Shown here: positions 1,243-47,501 of the stretch, piece after piece | Layout: the number at the start of each line of letters is the position of its first letter | Position numbering within the stretch: the stretch's first letter is position 1 | NCBI RefSeq assembly: GCF_006517175.1 | Contig: NZ_CP041186.1 | Location: forward strand, 5,793,074-5,857,073 | DNA length: 64,000 nt | From: Persicimonas caeni | Lineage (GTDB): Bacteria > Myxococcota_A > Bradymonadia > Bradymonadales > Bradymonadaceae | Direction of reading: 5' to 3' | The notes under the pieces: generated by a model | Told to the model about the DNA's origin: nothing | Databases searched by the model: none | What the model saw: the letters and a program-made list of their open reading frames with translations, nothing else | Position numbers and translations under genes: made by a program

Positions 1243-3414
1243 TCAGTCCTCGTCTTCGTCTGCTTTTTCCGCCGGCTCGTGCACGGTTCGCACCTCGGCG
1301 CTGGTCGCCCGATGGAAGAACCCGATCGCGTCTGCGCGATAGTCGACCGAGTGCAGTCGCTTGTACTTGAGCCTCGCTTCACCCACGGCGCCCTCAGCCA
1401 GCGCCTTGTCGATGTCCTTGCGAAGATCGTCGCGGAATTGGCGCACCTCTTTTTCGGAGGTGAGCTCCTCGAGCATCTTCTGGTCTTCGTCGTTGGGCTT
1501 TCCGCCGCTGAGGCGTACTGCGGAGGTGAGCTTGGTCAGCGCGGCCTTGTACTCCTCGAGCGAACCGCTGTTCTTGGCGTCTTTGAGGTGCTTCTGCGCC
1601 TCGGCGCGAAGCTTTTTGGCCTCGGCGGCCGCCTCTTCGTCGCTCATCTTCTTGTCGCCGCCGTCAGCGGGCGGGTTGGTCCGATAGCTGCTGACGATGG
1701 TCAGGCGCGGATCGCTCTGCACCGCACCGGGGGGCGCGACGGCACCGGCTGCGGCGGGCGCACCCGCTTCGCTACCTGCGCCGGCATTGCCGGCTTCCGA
1801 GCCCGCTGCCGGGGAGCCCCCGGCCGGTTGCGCCGCCTCTTGCTGCTTTTTGGCGATGGCCGCCTGACGAGCTTGCGCTTGGCGAGCCTTCTGCGCCTGC
1901 TGCTTGTTCCAGTACATGTAGCCGGCAAAGCCGCCCAAGAGGAGCACGGCAATGGCTGCCACGATCTTGATGTCGAGCTCGGCCGGGTTCAGGCTCAACC
2001 CGTCGAGCGACACGCCGCCGCCGGCTTTGAGGGCGTCGGTCAGCTCGCTGGCACGTTGGGGGCGCTCGGCCGGGTTAGCCGACAAGGCCGCTTCGAGCTT
2101 TTTGGCGAGCTTCTGGTCGTCGTAATTCGACAGCTTCTCGGCGTGGAAGGGCAGGCCGGTGAGCGCGGCTGCACCCACAGCGGCCAAGCTGAAGACGTCG
2201 GTCGCAGGCGACATCTGGCGGTCCTGCGGCGGACGCTTGAGCTCTTGGGCGCCGTACGGGCCCAGGTCGCCGCGCTTCTCGAAGCTGAGAAGGTCGAACG
2301 GCTCGAGCACGATGGAGTTGTCTTCTTGAATCCAGATCGCGTCGGGCGTCAGGTTGCCGTAGAGCAACTCGGCGTCGTGAATCAGGTCGAGCACTTCGGC
2401 GACCTGTTTCATCCAGTCGATGACATTCTCTTTGTCCTGGGGCCCGTGCTGCTGGAGGACCGCCGACAGTCGGTAACCCTCGGGCTTTTGCAGGTCGGCC
2501 CACAGGCCGCTCTGGGTGGCAAAGACCCCGTTGAGCTTGACCAGGCTGGGGTGCTCCAGAGCGTCGAGTTGGGCGATGCGCTGGCGAATATCCGGGGGCA
2601 TCTGTGACGGATCGCCGGCCCACACCTGGCGCAACACGACGGGGCGTCCCAGCGGATTCTGGGCAAAGATGAGGGTGACTTCGCCCTGTTGGATGGACTG
2701 CGGGCCGAACTGGTAGCTCTGGCGCAGCATCTGGTCGTTGGCGATATTCGTCGGCCCCTGCGGCCCCGACGCTTGCTGTTGCTGCGAGCCCTGCAGATCG
2801 TCGATCTGGATAAAGGCGGTTTTGCCCTCGTAGCCCGCCGAGCTGGAGTCGGGGGCGAATTCGGCGTTCTGCTGGGCGAAGTCGTTGATGTTGATGAAGT
2901 CGGTTTTGCCCTCATAGCCGCCGCCTCCGCCAGGGGCGAAGACCTGCTGGTTGCCGCCGTGGCTGGGGGCCGGGGAGGGCGACGAGCCGACCGACAACGC
3001 TTCGCGATGCGGCTCGGTGCTCTCTTCGACGCGGCCGGCGCCCTGCTGCAGGCCGTGCAGATCGACCATCTGGGTGGCCTCTTCGGCGAAGTCGTCGTCG
3101 GCGAAGTCACCGCCGGCGTGGATGCCGCCGCTGTTCTGGCCGCCGCCATTTGGGCCGCCGCCATTTGGGCCGCCGCCATTTGGGCCGCCGCGATTCTGGC
3201 CGCCGCCGTGGCCCGAAGGGGGCGCGGAGCGTTGGGGTCCGCTAGGCGGGCCCTGCTGCAGCCGGTCGACGTTGACCATCAGAGTCTTTTCATCCTCGTG
3301 AAAGTCGTCGTTGCCGCTGGCGGTGCCAGGTTGCCCCTGGTCCTGCTCGCGCTGCCGCTGCTTGTTGCGGTCGATCAGGCTGCGTCGCGCCTGCTTGAAT
3401 CTATCGTCGGACAT
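1243..3414 (-). CDS. Membrane pseudokinase with four N-terminal threonine motifs
   Basis: A protein of 723 residues. Residues 1-230 are low-complexity, with four copies of an acidic-T-x-hydrophobic-[VI] motif (KTLMV at T44, ATQMV at T114, KTDFI at T171, KTAFI at T199). Residues about 245-465 look like a protein-kinase fold: LEHPSLVKLNGVF, VLDLIHDAELLYGNLTPDAI, then PATDVFSLAAVGAAALTG and PAERPQRASEL. The catalytic HRD is replaced by LYGN and the DFG position by EPFD, and I see no VAIK lysine, so it is probably catalytically dead. A membrane helix lies at about 483-502. Beyond it is an Ala/Gln-rich coiled segment and a charged helical C-terminal part. It probably acts as a membrane scaffold in Ser/Thr signalling; the partners are unknown. 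Confidence 0.82.
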   Translation of the reverse strand: MSDDRFKQARRSLIDRNKQRQREQDQGQPGTASGNDDFHEDEKTLMVNVDRLQQGPPSGPQRSAPPSGHGGGQNRGGPNGGGPNGGGPNGGGQNSGGIHAGGDFADDDFAEEATQMVDLHGLQQGAGRVEESTEPHREALSVGSSPSPAPSHGGNQQVFAPGGGGGYEGKTDFININDFAQQNAEFAPDSSSAGYEGKTAFIQIDDLQGSQQQQASGPQGPTNIANDQMLRQSYQFGPQSIQQGEVTLIFAQNPLGRPVVLRQVWAGDPSQMPPDIRQRIAQLDALEHPSLVKLNGVFATQSGLWADLQKPEGYRLSAVLQQHGPQDKENVIDWMKQVAEVLDLIHDAELLYGNLTPDAIWIQEDNSIVLEPFDLLSFEKRGDLGPYGAQELKRPPQDRQMSPATDVFSLAAVGAAALTGLPFHAEKLSNYDDQKLAKKLEAALSANPAERPQRASELTDALKAGGGVSLDGLSLNPAELDIKIVAAIAVLLLGGFAGYMYWNKQQAQKARQAQARQAAIAKKQQEAAQPAGGSPAAGSEAGNAGAGSEAGAPAAAGAVAPPGAVQSDPRLTIVSSYRTNPPADGGDKKMSDEEAAAEAKKLRAEAQKHLKDAKNSGSLEEYKAALTKLTSAVRLSGGKPNDEDQKMLEELTSEKEVRQFRDDLRKDIDKALAEGAVGEARLKYKRLHSVDYRADAIGFFHRATSAEVRTVHEPAEKADEDED
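3127..3201. repeat. 15-bp tandem repeat inside the pseudokinase gene
   Basis: Five adjacent 15-bp units. The three central ones (3142-3186) are identical and the outer two are degenerate. They encode GGPNG-type pentapeptides in the disordered N-terminal region of the pseudokinase, so copy-number change would keep the reading frame. They probably act as a flexible linker between the second and first threonine motifs. Confidence 0.85.
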
Positions 3415-3511
3415 GAGCTCTTTGGGTTTAGCGTCACTTGTGGCGCGCGCGCCGGTCGGCGTGGCCCCAAAGGGAGCCGGCCGTGGCGGGAGCTTGCCTC
3501 GCCGGGGTCAA

Positions 3512-4609
3512 TCAGCGGCGAAACCAGCCCTCGTCGATCTTGATGCCGCGCGATTCGGCTTCTTCCATGAAAGTTGGCAGGTTGCCCACCGGCTCGAGTT
3601 GACCGATGACCGTGCCGTCGTCGTCGGTGCCGCGATGCTTGAACTCGAAGAGCGGGTGAATCTGATATTCGCCGTTGTCGGCCAGATCGAGCACCTCGAC
3701 GATATGCGTGATCTTGCGCGAGCCGTCGTTGAACCGGCTGGTCTGCACGATCATCTGGACCGCCGAGGCGACCTGGCTACGAAGCGCCTGAAGCGGCATC
3801 TCCACGCTCGACATCATCGCCATGGTCTCCAGGCGGCGCAACGTGTCGTCGGGGTACGTGGCGTGGGTCGTGGTCATCGAGCCGCCGTGGCCCGAGGTCA
3901 TCGCCTGCAGCAAGGAGAGCGCCTCGCCGCCGCGAATCTCACCGATGACGATACGGTCGGGGCGAAGACGCATGGCCGAGTGGAAAAGGTCTCCGATGGT
4001 CACTTCGCCGCGGCCGCGCGCGTCGGGCTTGCGCGCCTCGAGCATGAGCACGTGTGGCTGCTGCAGCTGCAATTCGGTCGAGTCCTCGATGACGATGATG
4101 CGGTCATTCGGGTCGATCAGCAGCGAAATGCAGTTCAGAAGCGAGGTCTTACCACTGCCCGTTCCGCCGGCGACGACGAGGTTGCGCTTCATCTTGACGC
4201 AGACATCGATAAAATCGACGGCGTCGCGGGTGACGCTGCCGAATTCGATGAGCTTCTCCATATTCAGCGAGAAGGTGCCGAAGCGACGAATCGCCACGCT
4301 GATGCCGTTTTGGGCGCAGGGCGGCAACACCACGTGCACACGACTGCCGTCGGGCAGACGCGCGTCCATGCGCGGGTTCATCTCGTTGAGGGTCTTGCCG
4401 ACGTACTGGGCGATGTTTTTGACGCCGCCCATCAAGTCATCGACGGTGTCGAACTTGGCGTCGGTCTTTTTGAGCTTGCCGCTGACCTCGATCCAGATGT
4501 CGTCCGGACCGTTGATCATGATTTCGCCAACGGAACTATCTTCCAGATAGGGTACGATCGGCTTGAAATAGCGCCGAATCGATTGTTCGAAGATTCGCTT
4601 CGGGATCAT
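3512..4609 (-). CDS. cpaF: CpaF/TadA-type secretion ATPase
   Basis: A protein of 365 residues, from the ATG at 4609 (MIPKRIFEQSIRRYF); the longer frame would need a TTG start. It has a Walker A (GGTGSGKTSLLN), an Asp-box region (IVIEDSTELQL), a Walker B region (MRLRPDRIVIGEIRGGEAL) and the His box SGHGGSMTTTHA. These are the signatures of the GspE/VirB11 superfamily, CpaF/TadA branch, which powers Tad pilus assembly. It is somewhat short because it lacks the long N-terminal extension of many CpaF proteins. No other tad/cpa genes (cpaB, cpaC, tadB, tadC, flp) occur nearby. Its neighbour on the same strand is the pseudokinase, about 100 bases downstream. Confidence 0.93.
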   Translation of the reverse strand: MIPKRIFEQSIRRYFKPIVPYLEDSSVGEIMINGPDDIWIEVSGKLKKTDAKFDTVDDLMGGVKNIAQYVGKTLNEMNPRMDARLPDGSRVHVVLPPCAQNGISVAIRRFGTFSLNMEKLIEFGSVTRDAVDFIDVCVKMKRNLVVAGGTGSGKTSLLNCISLLIDPNDRIIVIEDSTELQLQQPHVLMLEARKPDARGRGEVTIGDLFHSAMRLRPDRIVIGEIRGGEALSLLQAMTSGHGGSMTTTHATYPDDTLRRLETMAMMSSVEMPLQALRSQVASAVQMIVQTSRFNDGSRKITHIVEVLDLADNGEYQIHPLFEFKHRGTDDDGTVIGQLEPVGNLPTFMEEAESRGIKIDEGWFRR

Positions 4610-4844
4610 GGCAACAGCTTCGTCTGGTCCGGGTTGTGACTTATCCTTACCCTGCGGGAGTATACAGTAGCCCCTGTGGTCACGCAATCACGACGGCCTG
4701 AGAAAGGCTGGCGAGCGAGGCGGGGCCGCCACTCCGTTTGCGACCGCCCTAGACCGGGCCACCCCACTATGTTAATCGCTGGCGGGAATGGCGCGGGGCT
4801 CTGGTGCATTTTCTTGCGGAGATGCCTTTAGGCTCAAAAAAGCG

Positions 4845-5558
4845 ATGATTAAAGCAATAGACAAGTTCTTTCCGGCCCTGGTGGTGCTCACGGCACTGGC
4901 CACTCTGGCGGCGTTGTACCTGATCTTCTTTTACGCCCCCGTCGAAGCATCGATGGGCATCGTCCAGAAGATCTTTTACGTGCACGTGCCGTCGGCCATG
5001 GTGATGTACGCCGGCTTTACGATCACCTCGGTGGCCAGTCTGGTCTACCTGTTGAAGCCTAACCGCGGCTGGGATATCGCCGCGCTGACCGGCGTGGAGC
5101 TCGGGCTCATCTTTTGCGCCTACGTACTCATCTCCGGGCCGTTGTGGGCGTACAAAGCCTGGGGCGTGGCGTGGACCTGGGACCCGCAGCTGACCGCGAC
5201 CTTCGTGCTCTTTTTGCTGTACGGCGGCTACGGCTTGCTGCGCGCGTTCTCCGGAAAGAGCGAGCAAGTACGCAAAATCGCCGCTGTCTTGGCGGTCATC
5301 GCCTTTGTCGACATCCCGATCATTCACTACGCGGTCAAGAAATGGGGCGGGCTGCACCCGGTCGTCGAGCGAGAAGGCGGCGGCGGACTCGCCCCGGAGA
5401 TGAAGCTCGCCGCGTCGATCAGCATGCTCGCCTTTTTGGGAATCTTCTTGGTGCTTTTTTGGCTTCGTATGCGCGTGCGCCTGACCGAGCGTCAGGTCGA
5501 CCAGCTGTACTTGGACGTCGAAGACGCCAGCCACGTACTGGGCAAGCGCACCAACTGA
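4845..5558 (+). CDS. ccmC: Cytochrome c maturation heme-handling protein CcmC
   Basis: A protein of 237 residues; I chose the ATG at 4845 (MIKAIDKFFPAL) rather than the longer upstream frame. It is a multi-spanning membrane protein with the tryptophan-rich WWD-type segment WGVAWTWDPQLTATFVLF, then LLYGGYGLLR and DIPIIHYAVKKWGGLHP, which are characteristic of CcmC. CcmC presents heme at the periplasmic face for transfer to CcmE in system I cytochrome c maturation. It is the first gene of a short run with the CcmD-like gene 16 bases downstream. ccmA and ccmB are not adjacent; upstream is the divergent cpaF. The diheme cytochrome at about 30 kb is a possible client. Confidence 0.95.
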   Translation: MIKAIDKFFPALVVLTALATLAALYLIFFYAPVEASMGIVQKIFYVHVPSAMVMYAGFTITSVASLVYLLKPNRGWDIAALTGVELGLIFCAYVLISGPLWAYKAWGVAWTWDPQLTATFVLFLLYGGYGLLRAFSGKSEQVRKIAAVLAVIAFVDIPIIHYAVKKWGGLHPVVEREGGGGLAPEMKLAASISMLAFLGIFLVLFWLRMRVRLTERQVDQLYLDVEDASHVLGKRTN

Positions 5559-5574
5559 AATGGAGGCCGTACCG

Positions 5575-5844
5575 ATGAAATCGCTCGTTTCAGCTTCGAT
5601 CTTCGCGCTGGTCAACTTGGCATGGGCCGGCGTGGCGTTCGCCCAAGGGGGCGCCGGCTCGCTGGCCGGCCAAGAGACCTCCATTCCGGGAGGCACCCTC
5701 GCACTGGCTGCGTACATCGCACTGTGGATCCTGATTTTCGGTTTTCTGATGATCACGATGCGTCGCCAGCGCGCCATTGACAATGAGCTGACCGAGCTCG
5801 AGCGGCGCATGGACGAGGTCTTTGACGACTTGGACAAGAAGTAA
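5575..5844 (+). CDS. CcmD-like small membrane protein
   Basis: A protein of 89 residues. The ATG at 5575 follows a GGAGG at about 5562, which decides the start. It has an N-terminal signal-like helix ending VAFAQ. A second helix follows (LAAYIALWILIFGFLMITMRRQRAIDNELTELERRM), running into a charged C-terminal coil. CcmD proteins are short single-span proteins with exactly this helix-plus-charged-coil layout, next to ccmC, where they help release holo-CcmE. The extra N-terminal signal peptide makes this the longer CcmD-family type. Position and topology support the call; sequence motifs alone are weak. Confidence 0.75.
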   Translation: MKSLVSASIFALVNLAWAGVAFAQGGAGSLAGQETSIPGGTLALAAYIALWILIFGFLMITMRRQRAIDNELTELERRMDEVFDDLDKK

Positions 5845-5891
5845 CACGGCGACCGGGTGGTTGAGCCAGCGGTCGCCTGCGGAGGTACCCC

Positions 5892-6086
5892 ATGGGCATG
5901 TCTAGCGCCCACATTTTTTATATCCCGATCATCTTCTTCGTCGGCGTCTTCGCCGGGTTCTTCCTGGGCCGGCGCGCCGCCGAAAACGAGGCCCGCGAAC
6001 TCAAAAAGCGTCGCGCTCGCCGCAAGGCCGTGCGCGACCACGCCAAAGAAGAGCAGGGCGCCGACGAAACCAACGCCGCCTCCTGA
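5892..6086 (+). CDS. Small single-span membrane protein
   Basis: A protein of 64 residues. GGAGG at about 5880 precedes the ATG. One hydrophobic helix (IFYIPIIFFVGVFAGFFLGRR) is followed by an Arg/Lys/Glu-rich cytoplasmic tail. It is third in the ccmC run, 47 bases after the CcmD-like gene, so it may assist cytochrome c maturation. No family is recognised with confidence; it could equally be a generic stress-type small membrane protein. Confidence 0.6.
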   Translation: MGMSSAHIFYIPIIFFVGVFAGFFLGRRAAENEARELKKRRARRKAVRDHAKEEQGADETNAAS

Positions 6087-6149
6087 CCTCTGGCCTCGAG
6101 CTGGGCGGACCGGCACATCCTCGGCCGGTCTCTCAAGCTCTCGCCCCGC

Positions 6150-7205
6150 TTACTCTTCCCACCACTCTTTGGCCGGACCGGTATCGAAGCTTCCTTCTTT
6201 GACCGCGTGGCCAAGCATCTTCTTGAACTCTTCGATATTCTGGTGAGTCGCCGCCGAGATGGCCATGAACGGCAGGCCGAGCTCGTCTTCGAAGTAGGCG
6301 CGAAGCTCGTCGGCCTTTTCGGCCACGTACGGCAGGTCGATCTTGTTGAGGCAGACGAGCTCGGGCAGCTCGAGTAGATCCTCGTTGAACGCGCGCAGCT
6401 CGCCTCGAAGCGTCTCGAAGTCGGCGATCGGCTCGCGGCCGTAGGCCTCGGCCTCGGCCTCCGGGAGCACCTCGATGACGTGCACGATCAGGTTGGTGCG
6501 CTCGATGTGCTTGAGGAACTGGATTCCCAGCCCCTTGCCCTCGTGCGCGCCCTCGATGAGCCCGGGGATGTCCGCGATGGTGAACTCCTCGAGGGGATTC
6601 CACTGCACCACGCCCAGGTTGGGAGTAAGCGTCGTGAAGTGATACGCAGCGACCTTGGGGCGCGCGCTCGACAGCGTCGAGATGATCGTCGACTTGCCCA
6701 CGGAGGGAAAGCCGACCAGGCCGACGTCGGCGATCAGCTTGAGCTCGAGGCGCAGCATGAGCGACTCGCCGGGCTTACCCTGCGTCGACTTGCGGGGCGC
6801 GCGGTTGGTCGCCGACTTGAAGCGGGTATTTCCAAGGCCGCCTTTGCCGCCGTGGGCGGCCACGTAGGTCTGGCCTTCCTCGACCATATCGACGAGCAAT
6901 TCGCCGCTGGTGTCGTCGTAGACGAGCGTGCCGACGGGCAACGCGATCACCTTGTCGTCGCCGTTGGCGCCGGTGCGGTTGTTGCCCTCGCCGGGGCGGC
7001 CGTTTTTGGCGCGGATATGCTTCTGGTGGCGATAATCGCTCAGCGTGTGCTGATTGGTCGTCGCCACGAGCACCACGTCGCCGCCCTTGCCGCCGTCGCC
7101 GCCATCGGGGCCGCCGCGGGGCACGTATTTCTCTCGGCGAAAAGAGGTCACGCCGTCGCCGCCGCGTCCTGCTTCGATCTCAATTTTTGCTTCGTCGACA
7201 AACAT
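6150..7205 (-). CDS. obgE: GTPase Obg/CgtA, ribosome assembly
   Basis: A protein of 351 residues. I chose the ATG at 7205 (MFVDEAKIEIEAGRGGDG), preceded by GGGAAGATC. The N-terminal Obg domain is Gly-rich (GGDGVTSFRREKYVPRGGPDGGDGGKGGDV). The G domain has G1 GFPSVGKSTI, G3 ADIPGLIEGAHEGKGLG, and G4 CLNKIDL. Obg binds the large ribosomal subunit and couples assembly to GTP/ppGpp levels. It lies downstream of rplU and rpmA, the conserved order in bacteria. The C-terminal OCT extension seen in some Obg proteins is short or absent. Confidence 0.97.
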   Translation of the reverse strand: MFVDEAKIEIEAGRGGDGVTSFRREKYVPRGGPDGGDGGKGGDVVLVATTNQHTLSDYRHQKHIRAKNGRPGEGNNRTGANGDDKVIALPVGTLVYDDTSGELLVDMVEEGQTYVAAHGGKGGLGNTRFKSATNRAPRKSTQGKPGESLMLRLELKLIADVGLVGFPSVGKSTIISTLSSARPKVAAYHFTTLTPNLGVVQWNPLEEFTIADIPGLIEGAHEGKGLGIQFLKHIERTNLIVHVIEVLPEAEAEAYGREPIADFETLRGELRAFNEDLLELPELVCLNKIDLPYVAEKADELRAYFEDELGLPFMAISAATHQNIEEFKKMLGHAVKEGSFDTGPAKEWWEE

Positions 7206-43932: not shown

Positions 43933-43944
43933 GCTCTCGCAGAC

Positions 43945-43996
43945 GAGGGCAAGATGCCCACGCACCGAAGTTGACGAGGGCAAGATGCCCACGCAC
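43945..43996. repeat. 31-bp hairpin repeat, left part (intron target)
   Basis: Unit 1 (43945-43975) runs GAGGGCAAGATGCCCACGCA then CCGAAGTTGAC. Unit 2 starts at 43976 and is cut after ...CCCACGCAC at 43996, where the group II intron begins. It resumes as CGAAGTTGAC at 45936-45945. Each unit has a GGGCA-AGA-TGCCC hairpin. The preceding CTCTCGCAGACGA also flanks the second array near 47.5 kb. Confidence 0.92.
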
Positions 43997-44393
43997 GTGC
44001 GCTGGAGAGTTTAGACAGCGCGATGGTGAGAGTCCATCCGGGGCAAGTTCCGCCCCGAAGTTGAAGGTAACTGCGTCGCCGCGAGGCGGGGTGGGAAGCA
44101 ACCGAGGTAACGAAGAACCAGTCCGTAGCGAAAGCGAACTCGATTCAGCCAAAGGCACTCGGCGAGCCTATGTGCGGCCGGCGAAGCCCGGATGCCGACG
44201 AGCGGTAAAACAGATACGGGAGAAGGGCAAAACCCGTACCCCAAAGCCCACGGCCCCGAACAGACACGGCTCGGTTCGAGGGAACGAAACAGGAGCGTAC
44301 GCTCGAAGGAAGCCACGCGCACCAAGGAACACACGGTGACGCGATGGGAGTGCATGGTGGTTGGAGACAGAATGGTTCTTAGTGGCTGTCTAG

Positions 44394-45855
44394 ATGAATC
44401 CAGGAGATCTGCCGACGGGTCAAAAGACGCCGGCAGAAGTCAGAGCATTCGTAGTAGCGAGGAAACCTGGGAAAGCAGGTGGAGCGAAGGGATGCAGGAA
44501 AGTGGAATCAGGAAGGAAAAGAGCGATGGAAGACCAATCGACGTCAGTGTCCTGCGGGACTAAACAAGTCGAAGACATCCCGACCCAATGGACGTGGGTG
44601 GAACCAGCGATCTGGACCGACCGGATGCTCGAGGCGCTCGAAAGGGGCGTCAAAGGAGGCAAGTGGTTCAGCCTGATTGACAAAGTCTATCGGGAGGCCA
44701 CGCTGATCCGCGCATGGGATGCAGTCAAAGCCAACGACGGAGCAGCAGGCGTCGACGAGATGACGATCGCCGACTACGAGCGACACATCGAGTCGAACCT
44801 GAAGCGCCTGAGCCGCGTGCTCAAAGAGGGGTCCTATGTGCCCCGAGCCGTCAGGCGAACCTGGATACCCAAGCCGGGTCGAGCCGAGAAGCGACCGCTG
44901 GGGATTCCGACCGTAGAGGATCGGATCGTCCAGACGGCGCTCAAGATGGTGCTGGAGCCGATTTACGAGCGAGATTTTGTTCGTCATTCCTACGGCTTTC
45001 GACCTCAACGGGGAGCCAAAGATGCGCTGCGACGCGTCGACGGGCTTCTCAAGCAAGGTTATCGGTGGGTGGTGGATGCCGACCTGAAGGGGTACTTCGA
45101 CACGATCGACCATGATTTGCTCATGGCGCGCGTGGAGGAGAAGGTCTCAGACGGACGCATTCTCGAGCTCATCAATGCCTTTCTTACCTGCGAGGTCGTC
45201 GACCAAGGGGAAAGCCAAAAGCCCCACAGAGGCACGCCACAGGGCGGTGTGATTAGCCCGCTCCTGGCAAATATCTTTCTCGATCCGCTCGACCACCTGA
45301 TGGAAGAGCAAGGGTTTGAGATGGTGCGTTACGCCGACGATTTTGTGATTCTATGCCGGGACAAAGAGCAGGCCGACAAGGCGCTCGACGTGGTCAGAAA
45401 GTGGGTGCAAGCCAACGAACTGACGCTACATCCGGAGAAGACCCAACTCGTCGACGAGTCCGAGGGAAGTTTCGACTTTCTGGGCTACGCCTTCAAGCGC
45501 GGGAACAAGTACCCGAGCAAGAAGGCCAAACGGAGGTTTCTTTGACCGGATTCGGCAATTGACCCCGCGCACCAGTGGCCACAGCTTGGCTACCATCATC
45601 GAGGCGATCAATCGCACCGTCCGCGGATGGTACGAATATTTCAAGCACAGTTATTTCAACGTGTTTGACAGCCTCGACGGCAAGATCCGTAGGCGACTGC
45701 GCGCCATTCTGCGCAAGCGCTTCAAGATCTCGGGCCACACCAATCACACCGATAATGTGCGATGGCCCAACGCCTATTTTGCCAACCACGGGCTTTTCTT
45801 TATGGCCGAAGCCCGACGGCTGGAACTCGAGTCCTTACGAAAAGGAACCCGCTGA
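44394..45855 (+). pseudogene. Intron-encoded reverse transcriptase/maturase, frameshifted
   Basis: The first frame (44394-45545) encodes an LtrA-type reverse transcriptase (AVKANDGAAGVDEMTIADYERHI, RPLGIPTVEDRIVQTALKMVLEPIYE, SYGFRPQRGAKDAL, PQGGVISPLLANI). It keeps the catalytic YADD (VRYADDFVILCRD). It stops at 45545 after KKAKRRFL. The maturase domain resumes in the +1 frame (FDRIRQLTPRTSGHSLATII) and runs to 45855, ending WPNAYFANHGLF. One extra T in TTTCTTT at about 45537-45543 explains it; removing it gives RRFFDRIRQLT without a break. No HNH domain follows. ATG 44394 or 44526 may be the start. Confidence 0.92.
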
Positions 45856-45860
45856 CTGGA

Positions 45861-45893
45861 AAGCCGTATGCGGGAAATCCGCACGTACGGTTT
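45861..45893 (+). ncRNA. Group II intron domain V
   Basis: Folds as AAGCCGTA paired with TACGGTTT, then TGCGG with CCGCA, a GAAA loop region, and the two-base CG bulge on the 3' side, the canonical domain V shape. The catalytic AGC triad is present (45862-45864). It lies 5 bases after the maturase stop codon. Intactness suggests the RNA could still splice with a maturase supplied from elsewhere. Confidence 0.9.
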
Positions 45894-45935
45894 GGAGGGA
45901 GGGGCGCCCGGTGAACCGGGGGTCCCTACCCCTAT

Positions 45936-45960
45936 CGAAGTTGACGAGGGCAAGATGCCC
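45936..45960. repeat. 31-bp hairpin repeat, right part
   Basis: CGAAGTTGAC (45936-45945) completes unit 2 of the array and GAGGGCAAGATGCCC starts a third unit, which is truncated before TGCCTCC. It marks the 3' exon flank of the intron. Confidence 0.9.
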
Positions 45961-45985
45961 TGCCTCCAAAGCTTTCGCGGCGGTT

Positions 45986-47244: not shown

Positions 47245-47350
47245 CCACGTTCGACCACGACGACGCGTACGCCACCTCCACCACGGCCGCGTCGATCTGC
47301 GCCTCGAAGGGCGCGTTGTGGGGCAGCGCCAGGGCGAAGGGCGGCGAGAC
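47213..47350 (-). pseudogene. Remnant: C-terminal end of a family-3 solute-binding protein
   Basis: Reading the minus strand, about 45 codons give PPFALALPHNAPFEAQIDAA, then VVEVAYASSWSNVVKRYLPD and a stop at 47213. This pattern (FALP-x-x-x-P followed by a helix and W-x-x-x-x-x-RYL) is the end of SBP_bac_3 amino-acid-binding proteins. The upstream coding part is cut off exactly where the 31-bp repeats start, so insertion of the array or a rearrangement through it probably destroyed the gene. Confidence 0.6.
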
Positions 47351-47501
47351 GGCATCTTGCCCTCGTCAACTTCGGTGCGAGGGCATCTTGCCCTCGTCAA
47401 CTTCGGTGCGTGGGCATCTTGCCCTCGTCAACTTCGGTGCGAGGGCATCTTGCCCTCGTTAACTTCGGTGCGAGGGCATCTTGCCGTCGTCTGCGAGAGC
47501 T
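47351..47501. repeat. Second 31-bp hairpin array, five units, opposite orientation
   Basis: GGCATCTTGC starts at 47351, 47382, 47413, 47444 and 47475, a strict 31-bp period. The units are the reverse complement of those flanking the group II intron, and the outer flank (CGTCTGCGAGAGCT) also matches the flank at 43.94 kb. This copy has no intron. There are no variable spacers, so it is not CRISPR. Confidence 0.95.

Follow-up and report, generated by a model that had tools for sequence, protein, structure and literature searches.

Analysis of a 64,000-nt stretch of the Persicimonas caeni genome (the window) uncovered a full-length group II intron that is very probably a mobile element lying near but outside class C, retrohoming to a hairpin followed by an IBS1 sequence and producing its reverse transcriptase (RT)-maturase through an RF2-type +1 frameshift. 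The intron is 1939 nt long (43997–45935, plus strand) and splits a hairpin-repeat unit at CGCAC|CGAA, with junctions reading ...GGGCAAGATGCCCACGCAC|GTGCGCTGGAGAG...CCCTACCCCTAT|CGAAGTTGACGAGGGCAAGATGCCC. A neighbouring unbroken 31-bp unit on the same strand (43942–43972) carries the junction ACGCAC|CGAAG that excision of the intron leaves behind, and direct reading of this intact, empty unit upholds the exact ends and restored junction called in a first-pass annotation. The same annotation placed the insertion six bases past the hairpin GGGCA-AGA-TGCCC, and rightly so: the hairpin occupies 43978–43990 of the 5′ exon, followed by IBS1 at 43991–43996 and by the first intron base at 43997. Beyond the 3′ end, the remainder of the split unit is followed by a degenerate unit (together 45936–45966, plus strand) that has a hairpin at 45948–45960 and lacks an IBS1.

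The element has the hallmarks of a group II intron. Its termini, GTGCG...AT, agree with the consensus GUGYG...AY, and domains V and VI are matched by the Rfam model RF00029 at 45859–45935 (plus strand) with 57.5 bits against a gathering threshold of 40. It encodes an RT-maturase IEP with RVT_1 and GIIM domains, matched by TIGR04416 at 408.6 bits once the +1 shift is applied.

A search of the genome, which consists of one contig of 8,047,206 bases, recovered six copies of the intron: four are full, one is deleted, and one is split by transposons. All six occupy the identical repeat position, after GAGGGCAAGATGCCC[A/C]CGCAC and before CGA, and thus sit at CGCAC|CGA downstream of GGGCAAGATGCCC; none of the six found genome-wide lies at an unrelated sequence. 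Homing to a dispersed hairpin repeat, and the prediction that a genome search would place every copy at one position of the unit, are therefore both borne out. The window copy is identical to a second copy (L002), and two others (L003 and L004) share the same eight differences from it, giving two copy subfamilies, each an identical pair at unrelated loci. The deleted copy (L006, 1501–2334) has an internal deletion (667–1771) that removes most of the protein gene and keeps both ribozyme ends; it is possibly an ORF-less form. The split copy (L040) is interrupted by IS21-type (istA/istB) and IS3-type-looking elements at 2068–4429 and 4710–6289, and the genome holds six istB-like genes of equal score.

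The target repeat is abundant in this genome, and its core was not found in the 57 related genomes searched. An 18-mer spanning the hairpin gave 456 genome matches at ≤2 mismatches (control 0), a 15-mer gave nine matches in the window at the same tolerance against 0.21 expected by chance, and 317 perfect empty target sites remain in the genome (control 0). Repeats with the GAGGGCAAGATGCCC core number about 450, spaced roughly 28–74 nt apart in tandem arrays of both orientations, and within the window they lie at 43942–43990, 45943–45960, and 47350–47488. The last of these is a five-unit array on the minus strand, opposite in orientation to the intron. It had been described as holding five empty sites; three are indeed perfect, but one of the others has its stem shortened to 4 bp by a base change and one lacks CGCAC. 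A hairpin stands directly upstream of the intron in all relatives and lineages examined, and the 5-bp stem of the window repeat is by itself not rare when judged in this single lineage (p = 0.085).

The first-pass annotation had proposed aligning the 5′ domain for EBS1/IBS1 pairing. Alignment of domain I from five lineages located EBS1 (44172–44177, plus strand, in the window copy) and revealed a pairing that covaries across lineages. In all five, which have unrelated targets, it is the same six positions of the loop that base-pair with the final six bases of the exon; EBS1/IBS1 reads GUGCGG/CCGCAC in the window family, GUCCGC/GCGGGC in relative G017 (which includes one G-U pair), CCCCCA/UGGGGG in relative G006, GGUCUG/CAGACC in Magnetococcales, and ACUAAA/UUUAGU in Burkholderiales. 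The window copy pairs at five of six positions (IBS1 ACGCAC), whereas the other five copies pair at all six (CCGCAC). The fully matching CCGCAC is a minority form, present in 23 of 91 sampled units, yet it is used by five of the six intron copies.

Other genomes carry different hairpins. In relative G009, whose contig ends before EBS1 could be read, the intron follows a hairpin with 132 genome copies (control 0). This repeat (GCGGACGGGGACGTCCGCGCTC; L225–L234) is unrelated to that of the window, REP-like, and often arranged as inverted pairs about 50 bp apart. Among plasmids, 53 records contain the Burkholderiales target hairpin, but the 5′ end of the intron is present in only four of them. 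At locus L117 (1010–6011), a Paraburkholderia intron is flanked by tyrosine recombinase genes, and its hairpin, which is common to many Burkholderiales plasmids, may be a recombination site. These comparisons indicate that two host genomes and a group of plasmids follow one rule, in which the target combines a multi-copy hairpin specific to the host with a match to EBS1. The open-access literature searched holds no report of group II introns in dispersed palindromes.

The repeat hairpins could instead be intrinsic terminators, which would reduce the pattern to ordinary terminator targeting. Class C and related types do insert after terminators (PMC8919778, PMC4424553), and the window unit directly follows a gene end. 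However, the units have no T-run and are arranged in tandem, with as many as about nine in an array, in both orientations, and we consider a terminator identity unlikely.

In order to place the encoded protein, an RT-maturase tree was built with class C references comprising two solved structures, a Klebsiella integron intron, and two others. The references are monophyletic at 100% support and exclude the window protein, which groups with the proteins of G017, G006, Magnetococcales, and Burkholderiales at a support of 98. This clade is placed near class C at 94 in a quick tree whose fork is left open, and it probably adjoins class C. An alignment further showed that the C-terminal insert of class C, roughly 28 residues long, is missing from the window protein. 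The class C membership assumed in the first-pass annotation, which we had also adopted at first, was rejected on the basis of this tree and the C-terminal alignment. Among RNA models, RF02001 (IIC-type domain I) matches sister loci at 34–42 bits, above gathering, and the class C references at 129–137, while the best D1–D4 Rfam match of the window intron is RF02003, below gathering.

Several features are nevertheless shared with class C, including a hairpin upstream of IBS1, the absence of an endonuclease domain, a bias toward the lagging-strand template, a nearest solved RT that is GsI-IIC, and sister loci that reach RF02001, a model matched by class C references, at scores below those of the references. 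The window intron differs in its 6-bp IBS1–EBS1 pairing, compared to 3–4 bp for IIC (PMC7923331), and in targeting a dispersed repeat without a T-run, unlike class C introns, which insert after terminators (Robart et al. 2007, as cited in PMC4424553). By analogy, a class C-derived logic of hairpin targeting still fits. Types g6, U1, and U2 are described as branching near class C and sharing its insertion habit, often lying directly after terminator hairpins (PMC8919778); likened to them by description only, the window lineage probably belongs to these types. Class C-attC introns also insert inside a multi-copy imperfect hairpin, but theirs is the integron attC recombination site, entered at TTGT|T (PMC7923331), whereas the window intron enters a dispersed repeat at CGCAC|CGAA, and the window protein falls outside their clade.

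RF2-type slippage occurs at CUU UGA C, and a site of this form, overlooked in the first-pass annotation, lies at the RT/maturase boundary of the intron protein. The first IEP frame, which encodes the RT, runs from ATG 44526 to the TGA at 45543–45545, and the maturase (domain X/GIIM) and C-terminus continue in the +1 frame (45544–45855), all on the plus strand. Across the boundary lies an RF2-like +1 frameshift site, CGGAGGTTTCTTTGACC (45531–45547, plus strand), consisting of an SD-like GGAGGT (45532–45537), the slip codon CTT (45540–45542), and the stop TGA. At the sequence level, an SD-like element thus stands 3 nt before CUU UGA C where two coding frames meet. The site agrees with the prfB site of the host (CGGAGGTATCTTTGACC) at 16 of 17 bases and with that of G006 (CGGAGGTTTCTTTGACC) at 17 of 17, sharing with the prfB sites of this bacterial family the SD-like GGAGG, the 3-nt spacer, and CUU UGA C. 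The prfB site lies near the start of RF2, while that of the intron lies at a domain boundary in a mobile element; to our knowledge, prfB is essentially the only other place where RF2-type frameshift sites are known. Among genome matches to GGRGGNNNCTTTGAC, the form GGAGGT[AT]T is confined to prfB and the five IEP copies. The loose frameshift pattern has four further matches in the genome, none of which looked junction-like on inspection.

The two frames read as one protein. With the +1 shift, TIGR04416 gives a single continuous match at the 408.6 bits stated above, compared to 360.7 and 34.8 for the separate pieces. The GIIM domain starts at residue 336 and the shift falls at residue 339, and alignment with the nearest in-frame relative shows no gap at the joint. 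The protein gene is shifted at this boundary in all five copies that retain the region, and the shift is common to both subfamilies.

Such a shift might be a plain inactivating mutation, with the introns either dead or moved by a protein acting in trans. Its presence in every copy keeping the region is compatible with this, and bacterial introns commonly carry IEPs with frameshifts (PMC7923331, PMC8919778). The shift is also not conserved among relatives, because the IEPs of G017, G006, Magnetococcales, and Burkholderiales are in frame at this place, and it could be a tolerated mutation; pattern matches inspected for the same frameshift in relatives were either prfB (G006) or not junction-like. 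The SNPs between copies, few and mixed, show no clear synonymous bias. The maturase frame, however, remains open as far as its natural end, and a profile search of the genome turned up no further group II maturase that passed the family cut-off, on which ground supply in trans was rejected. Both subfamilies carry the shift as identical pairs at unrelated loci, which suggests that the introns most likely kept moving once the shift had arisen, although gene conversion could also have made copies identical. The site itself is a rare product of mutation: when single-base insertions were simulated in 60 codon-shuffled versions of the gene, only 1 of 317,520 created an RF2-like site, so that an insertion producing one in register is roughly a 1-in-300,000 outcome. 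The real sequence is more permissive (3 of 5292 possible insertions) because SD-like codons are already present. The simulation makes a chance origin unlikely, and we regard simple inactivation as quite improbable.

The RT and maturase could also be two separate proteins, the latter made by re-initiation at TTG 45559, 14 bases beyond the stop codon. TTG is a weak start, however, and initiation there would cut off the beginning of the maturase domain while leaving a near-perfect RF2-like signal unexplained, making this arrangement very unlikely. A programmed +1 shift joining RT and maturase is the reading we retain. On this reading, the protein seems to be the first from any group II intron to carry a programmed frameshift of the RF2 type, situated where its two domains meet; no RF2-type frameshift in any group II intron is reported in the open-access literature searched.

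The genomic distribution of the copies bears on how they spread. Four lie on the plus strand at 5.84–6.95 Mb and two on the minus strand at 0.74 and 1.92 Mb, and dnaA is found at 3.30 Mb, in agreement with the GC-skew sign change. From the dnaA position and GC skew, all six are held by the lagging-strand template, the reported preference of class C introns (PMC8919778), although over six copies this orientation bias reaches only about p = 0.016. Introns without an endonuclease reverse-splice at replication forks (PMC4424553). That repeat and intron were duplicated together, so that the site association reflects descent and not target choice, is hardly credible: repeat arrays could recombine, but the flanks of the six copies differ beyond the repeat unit, with copies on both strands, and relatives obey the same rule at other hairpins, with EBS1 covarying. 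The single repeat position of six copies, the EBS1 covariation, the G009 hairpin, and the lagging-strand placement together lead us to infer retrohoming into host-specific repeats by a hairpin and a 6-bp IBS1.

In the proposed mechanism, the intron RNA would reverse-splice into single-stranded target DNA, presumably by the retrohoming route, and insertion would enter the lagging-strand template. Recognition would combine a hairpin a few bases upstream, probably read as DNA, with six-base EBS1–IBS1 pairing. This host would offer the match in a dispersed hairpin repeat of hundreds of copies, so all intron copies would come to lie at the same repeat position. During translation, ribosomes would shift by +1 at the SD-like GGAGG, 3-nt spacer, and CUU UGA C, joining RT to maturase; the intron RNA and protein are presumably still active, and the supply of maturase may be modulated by the level of RF2. 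More tentatively, it is plausible that this level sets the choice between an RT-only stop and a shift that adds the maturase, tying splicing and mobility to the termination capacity of the host, and the RT-only product may also serve a separate function.

An intron review has raised, as speculation, the idea that frameshifting allows some split IEPs to be expressed (PMC8919778), and the window intron offers a concrete, testable case. Its lineage would add a new type of target beside terminators and attC sites, namely host-specific dispersed hairpin repeats matched by covarying EBS1 sequences, and targeting of such a repeat would make this intron a natural system for multi-site retrohoming.
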